From Luteolibacter sp. (GTDB taxonomy: Bacteria; Verrucomicrobiota; Verrucomicrobiia; Verrucomicrobiales; Akkermansiaceae): DNA of 64,000 nucleotides. The notes beneath the pieces are model-generated. The model saw only the letters and a list, made by a program, of their open reading frames with translations, did not search any database and had not been told where the DNA came from. The stretch spans positions 62,001 through 126,000 of the forward strand of contig JAUYNL010000053.1 of the NCBI GenBank assembly GCA_030696085.1, given 5' to 3'. The stretch's first letter is position 1; each line of letters begins with the position of its first letter. Position numbers and translations under genes: made by a program. Shown in pieces: positions 47,249 to 57,080 of this stretch.

Positions 47249-48592
47249 GTGAAAAGTTATTTCCTCCGCCGCCTGCTGCTGATTCCCCCCACCCTGGTGG
47301 GGATCACGCTGCTGGTCTTCACCATCACGCGTTTCGTGCCCGGCGGCCCGCTGGACCGGATGCTGCAGGAAGCGGCGCGTGGGGCCGAACAAGGGGGGAA
47401 ACGGGCGTCCTCCAGCCAGGCGCAGGGGGGATTGAGCGAGGAGCAGCTCGAGGAGCTCGAAGAGCAGTTCGGTCTCAACAAGAACGTGCTGGTCGCCTAC
47501 GGACAGTGGCTGGGGATCGTCCCCCGCGAAGTGAGGATCTCCAAGGGCGAGTTCGGCGGGCAGGGCGAGGAGAAGATCGCCGGCACGCTGGATGCCGCCA
47601 CCACCGCGGAAGTCGTGCTGCGCGGCGACGGCCGGGCCGTGCACGTGAAACGCAGGGGCGAAAGCGTGGAGTCCGCCGTCTTTGCGGAAACCGGGAAAGC
47701 GGTGGCTGTGGAGGCCTGGAAAGTCCGCTACGAGACCCAACAGGACCGCCAGGACCGCTTCAAGCGGCGCAACACCGGCAACCAGACCGCGCCGGACTAT
47801 TCACCGCGCGCGGTGATCTATCAGACGCGCGTCTCCGGCCTGCTGCAGGGCGATCTAGGACGCTCGACGGTTTACAACGATCCGGTCCACGAAATGATCT
47901 TCTCGCGCATGCCCATCGCGGTTTATTTCGGCCTGCTCACCGCCTTCATCACCTACGCGGTGTGTCTGCCGCTGGGCGTGTTGAAGGCCTTGAAACACCG
48001 CACCTTCATCGACTCCGCCACCTCGGTGCTGATTTTCCTCGGCTACTCGATTCCCGGTTTCGCGCTCGGCGCGATCCTGCTGGTGCATCTCGGCGCGCGC
48101 ATGAACCTGTTCCCGCTCTTCGGCCTCACCAGCGCGGATTTCGACCAACTCTCCAATTTCAATAAACTCAAGGATCTCGCGCACCACACGGTGCTGCCGC
48201 TGCTTTGTTATATCATCGGCTCCTTCGCCGGGCTCACGATGATGACCAAGAACAACCTGATGGACAATCTCGCCGCCGACTACGTGCGTACTGCGGTGGC
48301 CAAGGGAGCGAGTTTCCGCAAGGCGGTCTTCGGCCATGCCTTCCGGAACTCGATGATCCCCATCGCCACCAGCCTCGGGGACCTCGTCACTGTTTTCATC
48401 GGCGGCTCGATGCTCATTGAGACCGTGTTCGACATCCAGGGCTTCGGCCTGCTGCAATATCAATCGGTCATTGCCCGCGACGTGCCGGTGATCATGGGCA
48501 CGCTGACCATCGCCGCGTTCCTCATGCTGATCGGACATGTGATCTCCGACTTCATCGTGGCGATGGTGGACCCCCGCATCAAATTCGAGTGA
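47249..48592 (+). CDS. Peptide-type ABC transporter permease (OppB/YejB class)
   Basis: A 447-residue inner-membrane permease starting at GTG. The N-terminal helix (YFLRRLLLIPPTLVGITLLVF) and the C-terminal five-helix BPD domain with the EAA-type loop (YVRTAVAKGASFRKAVFGHAFRN) are classic OppB. About 105 extra residues are inserted between YGQWLG and GDLGRS on the periplasmic side, so it is longer than usual (310-365). It starts a five-gene operon of overlapping genes importing peptides or similar solutes. Confidence 0.9.
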   Translation: MKSYFLRRLLLIPPTLVGITLLVFTITRFVPGGPLDRMLQEAARGAEQGGKRASSSQAQGGLSEEQLEELEEQFGLNKNVLVAYGQWLGIVPREVRISKGEFGGQGEEKIAGTLDAATTAEVVLRGDGRAVHVKRRGESVESAVFAETGKAVAVEAWKVRYETQQDRQDRFKRRNTGNQTAPDYSPRAVIYQTRVSGLLQGDLGRSTVYNDPVHEMIFSRMPIAVYFGLLTAFITYAVCLPLGVLKALKHRTFIDSATSVLIFLGYSIPGFALGAILLVHLGARMNLFPLFGLTSADFDQLSNFNKLKDLAHHTVLPLLCYIIGSFAGLTMMTKNNLMDNLAADYVRTAVAKGASFRKAVFGHAFRNSMIPIATSLGDLVTVFIGGSMLIETVFDIQGFGLLQYQSVIARDVPVIMGTLTIAAFLMLIGHVISDFIVAMVDPRIKFE

Positions 48593-48594
48593 CC

Positions 48595-50169
48595 ATGCGA
48601 TTGATCGGAACTATCGAAATCCTGTTAGGTAGCCTTGCGGTGGCGGGCGAACTGCTGGGCATCGTGTTTCCCACGGCGCGCTGGTTCTTCGAAACCAGCA
48701 GGCAGGTTCCATGGCTCCATGCGAAATCCGGAGCCGGCATGGCATTTCCGTGGTTCGGCTGGCTCAGCGCGGCGCTGCTCATCGCCTGCGGCGCATGGAT
48801 GCTCATCCGCTCTTTCACCCGCGGGCCGGCCAATCCGGTCACCGCGATGCGCATCAAGCGTTTCCGTGAAATCAAGCGCGGGTATTACTCGCTCGTCATC
48901 CTGATCACCCTCGGCGGACTCGCCGCGCTGGACCAGGTCGTGGTCGGGAAACAGGCGCTCGCCGTGCAATACCAGGGACGCTGGGTTTTCCCCGCCTTCC
49001 TGCCCGTGGCACTCAAAAACAAGGATTTCGGCATCACCAAAGAGTCACCCGACGCACCAGTCAACTATCGCAAACTCAGGAAAACCCTCCACGCCACCGG
49101 CGGCGGGCGGGTGATCATGCCGCTCATTCCATACGATCCCACCGGTGACACGCTGCCACCGCGCTCGCGGCAGTTGGTCCAGCGCGAGGGCGTCTATTAC
49201 GAATCCGGTAGCAGCAAACCCTACTTTGGTCTCGCCGCCCACTATCACAATGTGGACGAGGCGGTGATGCACGTCCGCTACACGCTGCGCAAGGGCCTGC
49301 CATCCGGCCCCGTGGACGGCTGGAGCGCGGACGGCACTCCGGTTTATAGCGGGGAATACCTCGATGGCAGACTGCTGCGCGAGCGCTTCAGCGGCGAGGG
49401 TGACAAGAAATCCTTCCTGCCCCACGCGAACATGGATCTGCGCGCCGTCAAATACCACCCGGCGCCGCCGATCCCGGAGGAGGGAAACTGGCTCGGCACC
49501 ACCTCGCAGGGATACGACGTGCTCGCCTATCTCTATGGCGGAATGCAGGTGAACTTCAAGGCGGCCATCATCTATCTGCCCATCGTCTATCTGATCGGCA
49601 TCACCATCGGCATGATGATGGGCTACTTCGGCGGATGGTTCGATCTCGCCGTCCAGCGCCTGATCGAGATTTTCTCGAACATGCCCTTCCTGTTCGTGGT
49701 GATCATTTTCTCAAGCATGGTGCCGGACCAGTTCAAGGGACTGCCCACCATCCTGACGATTCTCGTCGCCTTCGGCTGGATGGGCATGACCTTCCTGATG
49801 CGCACCGCCGCGTACCGCGACAAGGAGCGCGATTACATCGCCGCCGCAAGGGTGCTTGGCGCGGGCACGCCGCGCATCCTGTTCCGCCACCTGCTGCCCA
49901 ATACCGTCGCCATCATCGTGACGCTGGTTCCCTTCACCATGTCCGGCCTGGTGTTCGCGCTCACCTCGCTCGATTACCTCGGTTTCGGCCTGCCGCCCGA
50001 ATACGCCACCTGGGGGCGTCTGCTCAACGACGGACTCTCCAATCTATCGGCACCATGGCTCGTCTCCTCGACCTTCGCTGTGCTGGTGGCGCTGCTGGTG
50101 ATCATCACCTTCGTGGGCGAAGCCGTGCGCGAGGCTTTCGATCCGAAAAAGTTCACTTATTACCGATGA
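48595..50169 (+). CDS. Peptide-type ABC transporter permease (OppC/YejE class)
   Basis: A 524-residue permease. Two N-terminal helices are followed by an unusually long periplasmic part (about residues 120-305), including a MORN-like GEYLDGRLLRERFSGEG. The BPD domain follows with WLGTTSQGYDVLAYL and the EAA-type loop YIAAARVLGAGTPRILFRHLLPN. Typical OppC proteins have about 300-340 residues. ATG 48595 begins 2 nt after the stop of the first permease; GTG 48589 would overlap it. Confidence 0.88.
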   Translation: MRLIGTIEILLGSLAVAGELLGIVFPTARWFFETSRQVPWLHAKSGAGMAFPWFGWLSAALLIACGAWMLIRSFTRGPANPVTAMRIKRFREIKRGYYSLVILITLGGLAALDQVVVGKQALAVQYQGRWVFPAFLPVALKNKDFGITKESPDAPVNYRKLRKTLHATGGGRVIMPLIPYDPTGDTLPPRSRQLVQREGVYYESGSSKPYFGLAAHYHNVDEAVMHVRYTLRKGLPSGPVDGWSADGTPVYSGEYLDGRLLRERFSGEGDKKSFLPHANMDLRAVKYHPAPPIPEEGNWLGTTSQGYDVLAYLYGGMQVNFKAAIIYLPIVYLIGITIGMMMGYFGGWFDLAVQRLIEIFSNMPFLFVVIIFSSMVPDQFKGLPTILTILVAFGWMGMTFLMRTAAYRDKERDYIAAARVLGAGTPRILFRHLLPNTVAIIVTLVPFTMSGLVFALTSLDYLGFGLPPEYATWGRLLNDGLSNLSAPWLVSSTFAVLVALLVIITFVGEAVREAFDPKKFTYYR

Positions 50170-52316
50170 TCCGCAGTTTTTTCAAAGTCCTGGCCATGCT
50201 ACTGCCCTGCGCGCTCGCGCTGACTGGCGCGGGATGTCGCCGCGAGACGGTGGAAAGCTCCCGCGCGCTCGGCTTCGACAGCTTCGTGCCGGCCTACAAC
50301 CGGCACATCGCGGAATGGCTGAAGACCCAGCAGGAAGCCACCCGCAAGGAAGTGGCGCGCGTGGAGGCCGACCTCGCCAATGCGGACGATACGGCCCGCG
50401 CCACCTTGCTCAACCGGCTGAAAACCCTCCGGCAAGACCAGGAAAAATGGAAGTTCCGCCTCGTGATCGGTGATTTCCTGAAACTCGGAAACCCCTCGGA
50501 AATCCCTGCGGAACTCGTTTGGGAAACCGGCATGGACCAACCGGAAATCGGCGATCCCGCAGCGAAAAAAGGCGGTGTTTTCCGCAAATACATCCCGTCC
50601 TTTCCTCCGACCATCCGCCCGTTCGGCGACAACTCCAACAACTTCTTCCGCGGCGATCTTTACGACTACATCGACCTCCCACTGGTCACGCTCCATCCCG
50701 AAACGATGGAAATGATTCCCGGCCTCGCGAAGGAATGGGCGGTCTCCGAAGACGGACGCACGATCTATTTCAAGATCGATTCCGAGGCGCGCTACTCGGA
50801 TGGCAAACCCGTCCGCGCCCGTGATTTCCTGGTGGGCGTTTATCTCCGCGTTTCGGATCACATCGTCAATCCATACGCCAAACAATTCTATCGGGAGAAC
50901 ATCGCGCAGATCGCCATGTATGACGAACTCACCGTGTCAGTCTCGCTGCCCGAAGCGAAGATCCACGGCCCCGTCATCGCCGGCCAGATCCAGCCCTCGC
51001 CGCCGCATTTCTATGCGGAATACGGCTCCGACTACACCGAGCGCTACCAGTGGCGCTTCCCGCCGACCACGGGGGCCTACGAGGTCCTGCAAAAGGATAT
51101 CATCAAGGGAGCCTCCATCACCCAGACCCGCGTCAGGGACTGGTGGGCGAAGGACCGGAAATACTATCGCCATCGATTCAACCCGGACAAGATCGTCAGC
51201 ACGGTGGTGCGGGACGAGTCGAAGGCCTTCGAGCTGTTTCGCGCCGGAGAGCTGGACACGTTTTTTCTAACACGACCGGAACGCTGGTATGAGAAATCCG
51301 AGATCGAACCCGTTTACAAGGGCTACATCGAACGCGTGACCTTCTACAACCGCTATCCTAAAGTCCCGCTCGGCCTCTATCTCAATGTCAGCAAGCCGCC
51401 GCTCAACGAGCGCGCCATCCGCGTCGGCATCCATCACGCGATGAACTGGCAGAAAGTCATTGATGTGATGTACCGTGGAGACTACCAGCGCCTCAACGCC
51501 TTCAACGAAGGTTACACCACCTTCAGCGATCCCTCGATCAAGGCGCGGCCGTATTCCATCGATCTCGCGCGCGAGTCCTTCCGGTCGGCCGGTTTCACCA
51601 CCGAAGGCAGGGATGGAATCCTCACCAAACCGGACGGCACGCGACTCTCCATCTCAGTCACCTATCCGAGCATGCCGATCTATGACCGCATCTTCGCCAT
51701 CCTCCGGGAAGAAGCGAAGCGCTGCGGGTTCGAGCTGCGCCTCGACGGACTGGAAGCCACCGTTTCCTATAAGAAGGAAATGCAGAAACAGCACGAAATG
51801 GGCTTCGGAAGCTGGCTCATCCAGCCGCCGGTGCCGGATTTCCACCAGTTCCTCCACTCCACCAACGCCTATGATGAAAAGGGCAGCCCCAAGCCACAGA
51901 CGAACAACACCTTCGTCTGGAGCCGCCCGGACACCGATGCCCTCTGCGATCAGGTCCGCACCGGCCGCACCAGCGAGGAAATCAAGGACGCCGCATGGAA
52001 ACTCCAGCACATCATCCACGACGAGGCGATCTTCGTGCCCGGATTCTCGGTGGATTTCGTTAGAATCGGATCCTGGCGCTGGGTGCGCTGGCCGGATTGT
52101 GACACCACGCGTTTCAGCCCTCCCGTCGTCTATGATCCGCATGAAGTCTTCGTCTTCTGGGTCGATGAGGAGATGCGGGAGGAAACCCAGTCCGCCCGCA
52201 GAAGTGGCAGGGCTTTCCCGGAATCCACCAAAACCGTCGATGCCTACCGCATGGTCGCGGAGCCCATGCCTGCAAACGAATCTCCAGCCCCCGCGGACGA
52301 TCCCGAATCCCCATGA
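50166..52316 (+). CDS. Extracellular solute-binding lipoprotein (family 5)
   Basis: A 716-residue SBP_bac_5 protein, the binding component of the transporter. Signal with lipobox ALTGAGC, then a coiled coil of about 80 residues (EWLKTQQEATRKEVARVEADL) that is not usual for the family. The periplasmic peptide-binding domain follows from about residue 130 (AKEWAVSEDGRTIYFKI; YSDGKPVRARDFL). Closest in plan to YejA-like proteins. It overlaps the permease by ATGA. The longer open frame upstream lies inside the permease gene and is not used. Confidence 0.88.
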   Translation: MIRSFFKVLAMLLPCALALTGAGCRRETVESSRALGFDSFVPAYNRHIAEWLKTQQEATRKEVARVEADLANADDTARATLLNRLKTLRQDQEKWKFRLVIGDFLKLGNPSEIPAELVWETGMDQPEIGDPAAKKGGVFRKYIPSFPPTIRPFGDNSNNFFRGDLYDYIDLPLVTLHPETMEMIPGLAKEWAVSEDGRTIYFKIDSEARYSDGKPVRARDFLVGVYLRVSDHIVNPYAKQFYRENIAQIAMYDELTVSVSLPEAKIHGPVIAGQIQPSPPHFYAEYGSDYTERYQWRFPPTTGAYEVLQKDIIKGASITQTRVRDWWAKDRKYYRHRFNPDKIVSTVVRDESKAFELFRAGELDTFFLTRPERWYEKSEIEPVYKGYIERVTFYNRYPKVPLGLYLNVSKPPLNERAIRVGIHHAMNWQKVIDVMYRGDYQRLNAFNEGYTTFSDPSIKARPYSIDLARESFRSAGFTTEGRDGILTKPDGTRLSISVTYPSMPIYDRIFAILREEAKRCGFELRLDGLEATVSYKKEMQKQHEMGFGSWLIQPPVPDFHQFLHSTNAYDEKGSPKPQTNNTFVWSRPDTDALCDQVRTGRTSEEIKDAAWKLQHIIHDEAIFVPGFSVDFVRIGSWRWVRWPDCDTTRFSPPVVYDPHEVFVFWVDEEMREETQSARRSGRAFPESTKTVDAYRMVAEPMPANESPAPADDPESP

Positions 52317-53308
52317 ACGGCCACCCCGAAAACATCCTCGAAGTGGACAAGCTCATCACTTCGTTCGAGACCGACCGCGGCCTGCTACGCGCCGTCGATC
52401 AGGTATCCTTCTCGGTGCCGGAGGGGAAAACCGTGGGCATCGTCGGCGAGTCCGGCTGCGGGAAAAGCGTCACCGCCATGTCGATCGTCCGGCTGCTGCC
52501 CCAGCCCGCAGGCAAGATCCTCGGCGGCCACGTGTTTTTCAAAGGCCGGGACCTCGTGCGTGCCAGCGATGCTGAAATCCGGCGTGTCCGCGGCGGCGAC
52601 ATCGGCGTGATTTTCCAGGAGCCGATGTCCGCACTCAACCCCGTGCACCGCATCGGCCGCCAAGTCGCGGAAGTCTTCCGCCTGCACAAGAACATCTCGA
52701 AACGCGATGCCTGGGACGCCGCCTTCGAGATGCTCAGGCTGGTCCGCATACCGGCTCCCGAAAAGCGCATGATGGACTACCCCCATCAGCTTTCCGGCGG
52801 CATGCGCCAGCGCATCGTCATCGCACTCGCACTCGCCTGCCGGCCGTCCCTGGTCATCGCCGACGAACCGACCACCGCGCTGGATGTGACCGTGCAGGCG
52901 CAAATCCTCGATCTCATGGCCCGCCTCCAGAGTGAGATGAACATGTCCATCATTCTCATCACCCATGATCTCGGTGTCATCGCCGAAACCTGTGACGAAG
53001 TGGTGGTGATGTACGCCGGACGGGTCGTGGAAAAAGCCCCGGCAGAGGAACTCTTCGCCCATCCCCTGCACGCCTATACCAAGGGCTTGCTGCGATCGAT
53101 CCCCACCTTGGAAACTCCGTCGAAATCCGTTCTCCACACCATCCCTGGCATGGTGGCCTCGCTGGCGGAGCACACCCATGGATGCCGCTTCTGCCAGCGT
53201 ATGGGGCGCATCAGCTCGGGTGGCGGCGTCAGCCGCGAGCGCCCGGCCTTCGCCCAGATCTCACCCGGCCACTGGGTGGAAACATGTCACTATTGTTATC
53301 AACCATGA
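52313..53308 (+). CDS. Peptide-type ABC transporter ATPase (OppD class)
   Basis: A 331-residue ATPase. Walker [10 protein letters not shown]-loop [11 protein letters not shown], signature LSGGMRQR, Walker [12 protein letters not shown] and switch His in ITHDLGV. The C-terminal oligopeptide extension with [11 protein letters not shown] is present; it contains a CRFC but the second pair of Fe-S type cysteines is partial. It overlaps the binding-protein gene by ATGA. Confidence 0.94.
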
Positions 53309-54333
53309 CATCACTGCTTTCCATCTCCAAGCTTCGCGTCCACTTCCCGGTGCGCGGCGGCGTCATGCTGCGCCAGACCGGCGCCGTGCGCGCGGTGGAT
53401 GGTGTCTCGCTCGACATCGCCCCCGGTGAAACCCTCGGCCTCGTCGGCGAATCCGGCTGCGGTAAATCCACGCTCGGCAAGGCCGTGGTGCGCCTGCTCA
53501 AACCGACTTCCGGCAACATCCTTTTCGAAGATCGTGATATCTCCCATCTCAGCCAGCGCGCGCTGCGCCCCTTGCGCAGGGATTTCCAGATGATCTTCCA
53601 GGACCCCGCCGAATCGCTCGATCCTCGCATGAGCGTGCGCTCGATCATCGAAGAACCCTTCATCATCCACAGCCTCGGCAACCGCGCGGAACGCACCCGG
53701 CGCGTGAACGAATTGTTGGACCGGGTCGGCCTGCCATCCTCCGCGGCGGATCGATATTCATTCGAATTTTCCGGCGGCCAGCGCCAGCGTATCGGCATCG
53801 CCCGCGCGCTCGCCCTCAAGCCGAAACTCATCGTCTGCGACGAACCGGTCTCCGCGCTTGATGTCTCGATCCAGTCGCAGATCCTAAATCTGCTAGTCGA
53901 GCTTCAGAAGGAATTCGGATTGTCCTACCTTTTCATCGCCCACGATCTATCGGTCGTGAAGCATGTCAGCGACCGCGTGGCCGTGATGTATCTCGGCAAG
54001 ATCGTCGAACTCGCCACGGCGGAGACAATCTACCGCGATCCCCGCCACGCCTACACCAAGGCGCTGCTCTCCGCCATCCCCACGCCCGATCCGCTGGCGC
54101 GCCGCGAGAAAATCCTGTTGGAGGGAGATGTTCCCTCGCCCATCGATCCGCCCGCCGGCAGCGCCTTCGGCCACCGCATCAGCCACCCGCTCTATCAGGA
54201 AACCATCGGCATGGATCTCGCCCTCGCGGAGATTTCCCCCGGGCACCTGGTCGCCGCGGACCCCTGCTGCCTCAGCACCGAGGACTGGCGGAAAATCGGG
54301 CACGGCATCGTGCCCCCCCGTATCCCGGGTTGA
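53305..54333 (+). CDS. Peptide-type ABC transporter ATPase (OppF class)
   Basis: A 342-residue ATPase with Walker [11 protein letters not shown]-loop [11 protein letters not shown], signature FSGGQRQR, Walker [12 protein letters not shown], switch His in IAHDLSV and an OppF-type C-terminus ([12 protein letters not shown]). ATG 53305 overlaps the oppD stop by ATGA. It is the last gene of the operon; ATP hydrolysis is shared with the OppD-type subunit. Confidence 0.94.
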
Positions 54334-54392
54334 TTTTCCCGCGCTGGCTTCAAAGCTTCGCTTTCCGATCGCTCCGGGATGGGTTATCGAAC

Positions 54393-55070
54393 ATGGCCAT
54401 GGCCGCCACACCCACGCCGAAGGATCGCGCGATCCGCCTGATCCTGATCGAAGATCACGCCGATTTCCGCGAATCGGTGGCAATGGTGCTGGAGCAACGG
54501 GCGCATTACCAATGCGTGGGCAGCTTTTCCACCATGGAGGACGCGCTCGAGGCCATTCGCGGCGGACTGGAGGCGGACCTCGTGCTCTCGGATCTCGGTC
54601 TGCCCGGCATGAGCGGCATCGCCGGCATCCGCAAGGTGCGCGAACTGCTGCCCGAGGCCCGCGTGCTGGTGCTCACCGCCTTCACGGACAAGGCGAAGGT
54701 TTTCTCCGCCCTTGAAGCGGGTGCCCATGGTTATCTGGTGAAAGCTGGCAGCGCCTCGCGCCTGCTCGAAACGCTGGAGGAAGTGCTCGCCGGTGGCACG
54801 CCGCTCGATCCCAAGATCGCCGGCATGATCCTGCAAACCTTCCGCCAGCTCAGCCCTATCCCCGAGGCGGAATCGCTTTCCGCCCGCGAGTGCGAGGTGC
54901 TGCAACTTTCGGCCAAGGGCCTGACCCGCAAGGAAATCGCCGACGATTTGAAACTCAGCGAGCACTCGGTGACCGAATACATCAAGCGCAGCTTCGACAA
55001 ACTCCACGTTCGCAGCCTCCCTGCCGCCGTCAGCGAGGCGATCCGACGTGGATTCCTGGATCTCTCGTGA
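54393..55070 (+). CDS. NarL/LuxR-family response regulator
   Basis: A 225-residue regulator. Receiver domain at about 14-130 with the acidic pair ED (20-21), phospho-acceptor Asp67 (LVLSDLGLPG), Thr in LTAFTD and Lys in YLVKAG. C-terminal LuxR-type helix-turn-helix at about 155-220 (SARECEVLQLSAKGLTRKEIADDL). No histidine kinase is adjacent, so it is an orphan here. It is followed after 7 nt by the first copy of the tandem element. ATG 54399 is an alternative start. Confidence 0.9.
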   Translation: MAMAATPTPKDRAIRLILIEDHADFRESVAMVLEQRAHYQCVGSFSTMEDALEAIRGGLEADLVLSDLGLPGMSGIAGIRKVRELLPEARVLVLTAFTDKAKVFSALEAGAHGYLVKAGSASRLLETLEEVLAGGTPLDPKIAGMILQTFRQLSPIPEAESLSARECEVLQLSAKGLTRKEIADDLKLSEHSVTEYIKRSFDKLHVRSLPAAVSEAIRRGFLDLS

Positions 55071-55077
55071 CCGCCCG

Positions 55078-55209
55078 CGTGTCCCATGATTTAGGGACAT
55101 GACAGAAATCCGGATTTCCCGCATTCTTCGCCCGTCGAGGGGAGAGGTCCCCGGTTTCAATCATGACAAAGCTTTGGGGGTCGCGCAGGGGCGCGACCCC
55201 TTTTGTTTG
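55078..55209 (+). ncRNA. Tandem structured element, copy 1 (candidate small RNA)
   Basis: The 84-nt block 55078-55161 recurs at 55224-55307 with 7 mismatches. It opens with a hairpin (CGTGTCCC/GGGACATG around ATGATTTA, one G-U pair), has a second hairpin GGGGA-GAGG-TCCCC (55139-55152), then a variable stretch and an intrinsic terminator. The whole unit is about 130 nt, no promoter is obvious, and it starts 8 nt after the regulator stop, so it may be made by its own promoter or processed from that mRNA. A short frame from ATG 55099 (49 codons) is open across it; coding is an alternative. Confidence 0.5.
55177..55209 (+). terminator. Intrinsic terminator of element copy 1
   Basis: GGGGTCGCG (55177-55185) pairs with CGCGACCCC (55192-55200), 9 bp with a 6-nt loop, followed by TTTTGTTTG. 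Confidence 0.8.
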
Positions 55210-55223
55210 TCCCGGGCCGCTTC

Positions 55224-55361
55224 CGTGTCCCATGATTTAGGGACATGACAAAAATCCGGATCACCCGCATTCTCTCGCCGTCGAGGGGAGAGGTCCCCGG
55301 TTTCAATAGAGTTCATGACAGAACACAAGACGGGTCGCGAGGGGTCGCGGCCCTTTTTGTT
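55224..55361 (+). ncRNA. Tandem structured element, copy 2 (candidate small RNA)
   Basis: Second copy of the element, about 138 nt including its terminator. The first 84 nt (55224-55307) match copy 1, with both hairpins intact; the following stretch has diverged but keeps CATGACA and a GC-rich terminator of the same shape. From ATG 55245 a frame is open for 305 codons antisense to the pyrophosphatase gene; only its first 21 residues match copy 1. It lies between the regulator and the convergent pyrophosphatase gene. Confidence 0.5.
55332..55361 (+). terminator. Intrinsic terminator of element copy 2
   Basis: GGGTCGCG (55332-55339) pairs with CGCGGCCC (55346-55353), 8 bp with one G-U pair and a 6-nt loop, followed by TTTTTGTT. 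Confidence 0.75.
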
Positions 55362-55397
55362 GCCCTCAATTCGAGTGACTCCTGCCCACCCATTCTC

Positions 55398-57080
55398 CTA
55401 CGCGGATTGGTGAATCGCCTCGCAAACCGCGGGAAAAATCTGGCGCTTGCGGCTGACGACTCCCGGCGCGTGGAACAGGCTTTCGTCCTTTCGCTCGAAG
55501 GGCAGTTTGGCCAGCGCATTCTCCGGGCCCACCGCCAGAATCATGCTGTGATGCAGCGCGACATCCGTGACCGCCAAGATGGAAAGATCGTATTCGCGAT
55601 TCTTGTGCAGCTTCATCAGCTCCGCTTCGAGCTCTTCACGCCGCGCCGCGAAGCCGTGCAAATCCCGCTCCTCCACCTGCGAAATGCTGACGTTCCGCCC
55701 CTGTTCGGTGAACTCCTTGCGATCAGCGTTGAGAATTTCCTCGGGCGTGCCATTGGCGATGAGCGAACCGACCGCGAAAAACTCCTCGGTGAACGTTTTC
55801 GGATCCACACCCGCCACACCGCTGAGCCAGGTCAGCATTTCGCGGTCCAGCAAGGTGGTGGTCGGCGAGGTGAGGCACAGCGTATCGGAAACGATGCCCG
55901 CGCACAGGCACATGGCCACACCTGGAGCAGGCATGAGGCCACGGTAGAAAAACTTGCGGCCCACCAGCGTGCAGGTGGAGCCGACGGGCTCGTTGAGATA
56001 GCGGATCGGCTCGCGCGAAACAAGATCGCCGGCGAGACGGTGGTGGTCGATCACCTCGGTGACTTCCGCCTCCTCCACACCATTGACCGCTTGCGCGTAT
56101 TCGTTGTGGTCCACAAGCGCAAGCCGGATGCGCGGCGGATCGACGAGGTCGGATTTTGAAATGACACCCACCATTTTTCCGGTGCTATGATCGACCACCG
56201 GGAACAAATCCTGCTCGGAGGAGGACAAGTGCTTGCGGAGTTTGGAAACCGGCTCCATCGGGCAGACGGTTTCAAACTTCCGCTCCATGACATGGCGGAC
56301 CGTGCGCGAGCAGCGGATCAGCGTGGAGGCGCTAGCCGTATCCTGGGCACAACGGAGCAGCACGACACCGCGGGTTTTGGCGAAATCACGGATGTCTGGA
56401 GAAACCGAATTGCCGCCGGTGACGAGCAAAGCACGGGCACCAAAATCAATCGCGGAGCGCTGGACGATTGGTCGGTCGCCACAAATAACGAGGAAATTGC
56501 CGATATTTCCTTCGTTTTTCGCCTGCTTGAGGCGGGCATCCACGGTTTCCTGGGAGGAGGCGCCGACCAGCAGGATCAAGTCTTCCTCGCATTCCGGCAA
56601 TGGAACGCGGGCTCCGAGACTCTCGGCCTGCAAAGTGGCTGCAAGGTGAGCCAGCGAGGCATGCACCGTCCGAACACTGAGACCCTCGGTATCCGCTGGG
56701 AGCAGAAGCCGCAGCAGATCAAAATAGCGGAGAATGCCGCAAAGGTCACCGTTTTCGTCCTCCACCGGCACGCAGCGGATTTCCGCAGCGAGCATACGGC
56801 GATAGGCCGTGAGGAATGTGTCGGAGACCGTCACCTTGATGACTTCACGGTGACTGATCATGCCGGCATTGGTGCGGATGTCGGTGATCAGGACGGGCGG
56901 CTCGAAGCCGGCGCGTTCCAGCACCCACTTGGTGCGCTGCGAAATCTCACCGCAGCGGGCGGCGACGGCATCCCGTTCCTCGCCCACGGCCCGCAATAGG
57001 GCGGCATAGCCAATCGCGGAACAAATCGCATCCGTGTCCGGATTCTTGTGACCGATGACGTAAAATGGGGGCTTTGACAT
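55398..57080 (-). CDS. ppaC: Family II inorganic pyrophosphatase with CBS and DRTGG domains
   Basis: A 560-residue manganese-dependent pyrophosphatase. The DHH domain begins with GHKNPDTDAICSAI (residues 9-22) and continues after an inserted regulatory block: CBS motifs (about 70-125 and 255-310) with a DRTGG-type domain between. The second catalytic stretch LVDHNEYAQAV and VIDHHRL follows, then the DHHA2 domain. In characterised CBS-PPases the insert binds adenine nucleotides and adjusts activity. ATG 57080 gives a standard N-terminus. Confidence 0.9.
   Translation of the reverse strand: MSKPPFYVIGHKNPDTDAICSAIGYAALLRAVGEERDAVAARCGEISQRTKWVLERAGFEPPVLITDIRTNAGMISHREVIKVTVSDTFLTAYRRMLAAEIRCVPVEDENGDLCGILRYFDLLRLLLPADTEGLSVRTVHASLAHLAATLQAESLGARVPLPECEEDLILLVGASSQETVDARLKQAKNEGNIGNFLVICGDRPIVQRSAIDFGARALLVTGGNSVSPDIRDFAKTRGVVLLRCAQDTASASTLIRCSRTVRHVMERKFETVCPMEPVSKLRKHLSSSEQDLFPVVDHSTGKMVGVISKSDLVDPPRIRLALVDHNEYAQAVNGVEEAEVTEVIDHHRLAGDLVSREPIRYLNEPVGSTCTLVGRKFFYRGLMPAPGVAMCLCAGIVSDTLCLTSPTTTLLDREMLTWLSGVAGVDPKTFTEEFFAVGSLIANGTPEEILNADRKEFTEQGRNVSISQVEERDLHGFAARREELEAELMKLHKNREYDLSILAVTDVALHHSMILAVGPENALAKLPFERKDESLFHAPGVVSRKRQIFPAVCEAIHQSA

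Follow-up and report, generated by a model that had tools for sequence, protein, structure and literature searches.

The two near-identical blocks downstream of a NarL/LuxR-type response regulator gene in the window (the whole 64-kb stretch of DNA analysed here) are probably two complete sRNA genes, activated by the adjacent regulator and giving rise to trans-acting sibling sRNAs. We give this joint reading a probability of roughly 0.75. In the best reading of the sequences, each unit consists of an operator, a promoter and an sRNA, the last made of a first stem-loop (SL1), a terminator and, between them, a stretch in which UUCAUGAC is frequent. Comparison of homologous units establishes this anatomy at the sequence level, together with the promoter-like layout, the covarying stems and the co-inheritance with the regulator. 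The units form a well-delimited family of predicted sRNA genes without a match in Rfam. As promoter, folded RNA and terminator recur together with the regulator in dozens of related species, a family of regulatory RNAs not yet described is the likely explanation.

Two tandem units downstream of a NarL-type regulator gene

The regulator gene (54393..55070, forward strand) encodes a receiver domain (PF00072) and a GerE HTH domain (PF00196). Its ORF opens at TTG 54330; our guess is that translation starts at ATG 54393 instead. Alignments of orthologues on the long ORF begin in many cases only at residue 18–28 and in others at 6–11. The stop codon occupies 55068–55070 and the first block starts 8 nt downstream, exactly as given in the original prediction. 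The likeness of the two blocks noted there was also reproduced, 55078–55161 and 55224–55307 being identical at 77 of 84 positions. The same duplication can be described as a 91-nt repeat (55071–55161 and 55217–55307, 89% identity). With up to three mismatches, the 25-nt block start has two copies in the window and none in 100 shuffles, and BLAST against the genome of the window (G000) returned this pair and no further match.

The pair sits between the regulator stop and a convergent gene with DHH, CBS, DRTGG and DHHA2 domains, which by this domain make-up we take to be pyrophosphatase-like. On the other side of the regulator, ABC transporter genes (48589–54333), the last one with ABC_tran and oligo_HPY domains, occupy the place held in several relatives by a sensor kinase gene.

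Each block had been proposed to carry its own terminator, and the terminator scan indeed placed stem-loops followed by T tracts at 55176..55201 and 55332..55353 on the forward strand; five terminator-like sites were found in the 1.2-kb region where 1.4 were expected. Folding energies of the two units are below those of shuffled sequences on the forward (z = -1.96 and -3.25) as well as the reverse strand (-3.70 and -2.98). Folding energy by itself is thus uninformative about the strand, which is indicated by the T tracts and the covarying model instead. No Rfam family (release 15) reached its gathering score in the window, in keeping with the earlier remark that no family was recognisable. A permissive Rfam scan of six loci gave two sub-threshold matches, symR and Leu_leader, both at one locus. 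Phages gave no match to the units, and viral contigs no exact match to the box TGTCCC-N8-GGGACA found at the start of each.

Homologous units in two genera

A family-wide BLAST with the whole 291-nt stretch as query gave matches in 31 of 195 genomes from the same family; in a third genus (g16) an isolated terminator stretch of 21 nt was all that matched. Searching named genome contigs for the box yielded 36 stretches, whose titles include Akkermansiaceae, Verrucomicrobia, Luteolibacter and Haloferula; a few come from MAGs titled Akkermansia muciniphila or Prosthecobacter. One of the stretches, L037, holds a unit on contig NZ_JACZFQ010000059.1 of Luteolibacter marinus NBU1238, a relative in culture. 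We aligned 54 distinct units of at least 80 bits each and retained 44 of them in alignment A1, the 10 omitted by hand being mostly near-duplicates. A covariance model (R1) built from these 44 units detected the family in 36 of the 73 genomes of the window's own genus (g1) and in 17 of the 18 genomes of genus g7. Among 387 genomes drawn from the phylum, R1 found units in eight, all of g1 or g7. A later set of 92 hand-chosen sources (the window and 91 loci) gave 90 distinct rows (alignment A2), of which 85 entered an ungapped profile; the five omitted rows do not begin with TGTCCC.

The number of copies per genome ranges from one to four (one in 21, two in 21, three in eight and four in three of 53 genomes), and copies lie within 500 bp of each other in 12 of the 53. 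In some genomes the closest counterpart of a copy is its sibling; in others it is a copy from a different species, as for the second unit of the window.

The first hairpin as a probable operator fused to a promoter

Each unit starts with an inverted repeat of perfect 6-bp half sites separated by an 8-bp spacer. The predicted operator 1, TGTCCCATGATTTAGGGACA, lies at 55080..55099 and an identical operator 2 at 55226..55245; neither is assigned a strand. Among the 12 half-site positions of the 85-unit profile, 10 are invariant, one is conserved at 99% and one at 82%, a conservation that is partly by construction because R1 includes the box and the 36 box-scan loci were retrieved with the box itself as query (either G or T at one position of the stem). 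The TGTCCC arm is invariant and both variable positions fall in the second arm.

At a fixed spacing after the box, the 85 units share TGACA, a weakly conserved 17-nt spacer and a -10-like CAnnTT (C 87%, A 94%, T 59%, any base, T 56%, T 88%). In the window, the -35-like ATGACA of unit 1 (55099..55104, forward strand; positions 20–25 of the profile) overlaps the last base of the operator and is followed 17 nt later by CATTCT (55122..55127); the corresponding elements of unit 2 are at 55245..55250 and 55268..55273 of the same strand. A loose stretch then leads to the predicted start near GTC, about 54–55 nt into the unit when counted from the first T of TGTCCC. ATGACA matches TTGACA at 5 of 6 positions and CATTCT matches TATAAT at 3 of 6; a simple sigma70 scan of 54300–55500 reported no promoter-like site.

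The original prediction took the hairpin as the beginning of the RNA, which would make the whole 130-nt unit the transcript with TGTCCC/GGGACA as its 5' stem. This hairpin is present in the predicted fold of both units. Read as an RNA stem, however, it showed no double changes in 44 units, and one of its six pairs was broken without compensation in nine of them. Conservation upstream is low, none of the 30 positions before the box exceeding 0.66 bits (54 units), the -35/-10-like layout is fixed inside the unit, and boxes are also found doubled or without an RNA. A whole-unit RNA is therefore very unlikely. The first hairpin is very probably not part of the RNA and looks like an operator in the DNA that runs into a -35 element, since it lacks covariation, has little conserved upstream and is followed by a -35, 17-nt, -10 layout. 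Accordingly, the transcription units of about 130 nt proposed at first are replaced by shorter predicted RNAs, of about 73 nt (55134..55206) and 82 nt (55280..55361), both on the forward strand.

In the genome of the window, TGTCCC-N8-GGGACA with up to two mismatches occurs at 93 places compared to 66 for a backward-read control, and the two units are the only mismatch-free places. One look-alike (G000:C43) overlaps the apparent end of an open frame. At another locus (L052, 5520–5570), two boxes 26 bp apart precede a single unit; the outer one is bare and followed by TGACC in place of TGACA.

Anatomy and covariation of the predicted RNAs

Measured from the predicted 5' end to the end of the T tract, the RNA part spans 69–105 nt in the 85 units, mostly 70–85. 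SL1 (GGGGA-GAGG-UCCCC at 55139..55152; 55285..55298 in sRNA 2) and the terminator are the best supported elements. In A1, 94.5% of the SL1 cells are paired, with double changes at four of five pairs, and 97.3% of the terminator cells, with double changes at eight of ten; the whole structure scores above all 500 shuffles and all slid versions. The same trend was observed in the 90 rows of A2 (92.7% for SL1, 98.1% for the terminator), an alignment that leans towards the structure as its rows were fitted to the model. Thus the compensatory stem changes by which the RNA was to be recognised are present in SL1 and the terminator and absent from the 5' hairpin.

The middle region is only partly conserved. 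Its motif is UUCAUGAC in 56 of the 85 units, UUGUGA in 15, CAUGAC in five, UCAUGA in four and another sequence in five; sRNA 1 has CAUGAC at 55162..55167. The trinucleotide CAU is present between SL1 and the terminator in 80 of 85 units and missing in five. For sRNA 2, a second stem-loop, SL2 (GUUC-AUGACA-GAAC, 55311..55324), is predicted. SL2 is weak across the family: 71.8% of its cells are paired in A1, and in A2 its two parts reach 81.6% and 55.9%. Among the 56 UUCAUGAC units, a hairpin presenting AUGAC(A) in its loop is formed by at least three contiguous pairs in 38, by one pair in two and not at all in 16, a pairing above that of 2000 shuffles of the 3' flanks.

The conserved AUGAC could also be the start of a small protein: it is found in 62 of the 85 units with a purine-rich stretch upstream. 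From AUGAC, though, 40 of the 62 units have no stop before the unit end, and the distances from AUGAC to the unit end are spread over the three reading frames (28, 18, 16). A small ORF was rejected on account of these stops and frames, and coding at this position is extremely unlikely.

A different role for SL1 would be that of a protein sponge of the RsmZ/CsrB kind, titrating an RNA-binding protein. A repeat of the SL1 sequence within the RNA was seen in two genomes (G161, loci L023 and L124; G117, locus L024), and a partial one in G176, and by eye GGA lies in or beside SL1 in many units; Rsm RNAs are likewise amplified in tandem according to the available part of PMC7911923. Against this, SL1 loop and stem sequence drift freely in g7, leaving no fixed binding motif visible, and no CsrA match was obtained in the genome of the window at E ≤ 1. 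We consider a sponge unlikely compared to sibling sRNAs acting on other RNAs. An anti-SD reading of the GAGG loop was dropped because by eye the loop varies freely.

Association with the regulator and a sensor kinase

Within g1, the regulator (E ≤ 1e-100) was found in 34 of 73 genomes, all 34 of which also carry the RNA; 37 genomes have neither and two (G176, G188) have the RNA alone. A relative of the regulator at 58–61% identity occurs in three of the 37 g1 genomes without RNA. In g7, regulator and RNA occur together in 17 of 18 genomes and are both missing from the other, which is 61% complete. Over the two genera, 51 of 91 genomes thus carry both, 38 neither and two the RNA alone (Fisher p = 1.3e-23, a value without kinship correction; shared ancestry may be part of the cause). 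This co-inheritance agrees with the proposal of duplicated small RNA genes tied to the NarL-type regulator, expression itself being predicted.

The box followed by TGACA, with up to one mismatch, is present in 34 of the 73 genomes of g1 and absent from all 37 RNA-negative ones; a backward-read control gave 0. The 63 pattern rows correspond to 54 units, two of the same boxes on the other strand, one doubled box, one unit cut by a contig end and five lone boxes at four places. In G105 regulator and RNA were both found, yet the box falls outside the one-mismatch pattern. G188 (570 contigs) has unit and box and no regulator was found in it. In G176 (L126, 2035–2157), where no regulator was found either, the box is gone and SL1 is partly duplicated; SL1, UUCAUGACA and the terminator remain.

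We counted linkage on 99 unit rows, leaving out the five weakest (antisense terminator matches and lone boxes), and on 51 regulator rows, leaving out six at 58–65% identity. Within 600 bp downstream of the regulator and on its strand lie 54 of the 99 units, and 40 of 51 genomes have a unit in this position. Such a location would fit a cis-acting 3'-UTR or attenuator structure of the regulator mRNA. However, the other 45 units lie elsewhere. Nine of the 51 genomes, among the 11 without such a downstream unit, show no unit although the contig extends 1.7 kb or more beyond the regulator, yet they keep one elsewhere, and in G203 (L179, G203:C75) the unit is just upstream of the regulator, between it and a kinase-type gene. 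Moreover, copies keep their own promoter-like layout. A cis element is thus hardly probable, and the units are better read as separate sRNA genes. In G048, where the regulator is at the contig start, linkage is not judgeable.

A kinase gene lies upstream of the regulator in several relatives (a cluster of 18 proteins, duplicate contigs counted). The kinase of one relative (L067) has HisKA_3 and HATPase_c domains and a sub-cut-off F5/F8-type C match. In the genome of the window, the closest kinase match (65% identity) is on another contig and has one TAA inside the match. Judged from these comparisons, the sRNA genes are very probably controlled by the adjacent two-component system.

Operator-like boxes without an sRNA

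The lone boxes belong to two species, G152 (L129, 2504 on the minus strand and 10168 plus/10187 minus) and G166 (L128, 3287 and 5570, both minus). The core TGTCCCTTACTTAAGGGACA is present in both. Three of the four places precede genes whose products are of a secreted type, carry repeats or are very long. In G152 the boxes precede genes for TIGR02601-repeat proteins, one of which has a PEP-CTERM match (18.7 bits, cut-off 16, E 0.0023); one of the boxes also faces a gene on the opposite side. In G166 one box is 86 nt before an open frame that spans 1067 aa or more and begins with a signal-like sequence, and the other faces no listed gene start. The activity of lone boxes is doubtful because of their poor -10 positions.

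Proposed mode of action

We infer transcription of the units, binding by the regulator together with its sign, and action in trans from the arrangement described above. A HisKA_3 sensor kinase, adjoining in several relatives and encoded on another contig here, would pair with the NarL-type regulator. Once phosphorylated, the regulator would bind the operator TGTCCC-N8-GGGACA, whose centre lies near -44.5 relative to the predicted start and which precedes a sigma70-like core promoter, and activate sRNA transcription, with extra unit copies raising the dosage. The RNAs would then act in trans as sibling sRNAs, the CAU-bearing middle region most likely pairing with (GUCAUGAA-like) translation starts of target mRNAs. 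This pairing with start codons, drawn from analogy, is the least certain step and is put forward tentatively, since a motif of three nucleotides says little and the units are related to one another. A search for Hfq found none in the genome of the window (of its 14 controls, 6 ring and 5 exceed the cut-off); mRNA pairing would therefore have to do without it.

On a broader scale, we lean slightly towards the view that this Akkermansiaceae kinase-regulator pair has RNA as its main output: in g1 its operator would stand almost only at one to four sibling sRNA genes, working without Hfq or CsrA, and in two species also before genes for secreted proteins.

Comparison with known systems

Among the matches listed in a search of the open-access literature, none described a regulatory sRNA in these genera and none dealt with this sRNA family. 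By their logic, the closest systems are the streptococcal csRNAs and the GacA-driven Rsm RNAs.

As described in the available parts of PMC3091779 and PMC4507080, the csRNA genes of the Streptococcus CiaRH system are defined by a regulator box, a -10 element and a terminator. The RNAs often have two stem-loops and an unpaired CAU (anti-AUG) region, the siblings act additively, and their action on comC was tested. The site for CiaR consists of a direct repeat, TTTAAG-N5-TTTAAG, separated by 10 nt from the -10 that follows it (same sources). To the extent covered by these sources, both families comprise several similar sRNAs, of like size, under one response regulator (a predicted control in our case), and stem-loops plus a CAU region have their counterpart here in SL1, the terminator and the CAU of 80 of 85 units. 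In contrast to csRNA genes, our units carry an inverted repeat, TGTCCC-N8-GGGACA, that abuts the -35-like element and ends 22 nt before the -10-like element. They also presumably depend on a NarL-type regulator, in another phylum, and their action on target mRNAs is predicted by analogy.

GacA activates RsmX/Y/Z through a palindromic upstream activating site, and rsmX-1 and rsmX-2 are tandem copies each with its own site (accessible portions of PMC2375449 and PMC7911923); the latter source also names the Qrr sRNAs of Vibrio. As far as these portions go, the common features are a LuxR/NarL-type regulator, a palindromic upstream site, short sRNAs and tandem copies. The units described here differ by their box and may lack fixed GGA loops, GGA in or beside SL1 being seen by eye in many g1 units and absent from several g7 units. 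CsrA/RsmA (PF02599) had no match at E ≤ 1 in the genome of the window, which is 95.99% complete (controls of this search: 7 of 14 ring, 3 over the cut-off), and the regulator scored 99.2 bits with the GacA/UvrY model NF007018, whose cut-off is 280. With no CsrA and a regulator below the GacA cut-off, membership in Csr/Rsm was rejected for this genome. As box, regulator class or target protein differ, the family belongs to neither the csRNAs nor Gac/Rsm.

In Vibrio, several sibling Qrr sRNAs are activated by one response regulator, LuxO, a sigma54 regulator, and use Hfq. The present case departs from them in that no Hfq was found in the genome of the window. If our reading is true, these units would be another independent case of a regulator with redundant short RNAs as its output, beside the csRNAs, the Rsm RNAs and the Qrr RNAs, set in a genome with neither CsrA nor Hfq detected. 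The family has dozens of homologues, its regulator is a likely one, and both its operator and its start are predicted.
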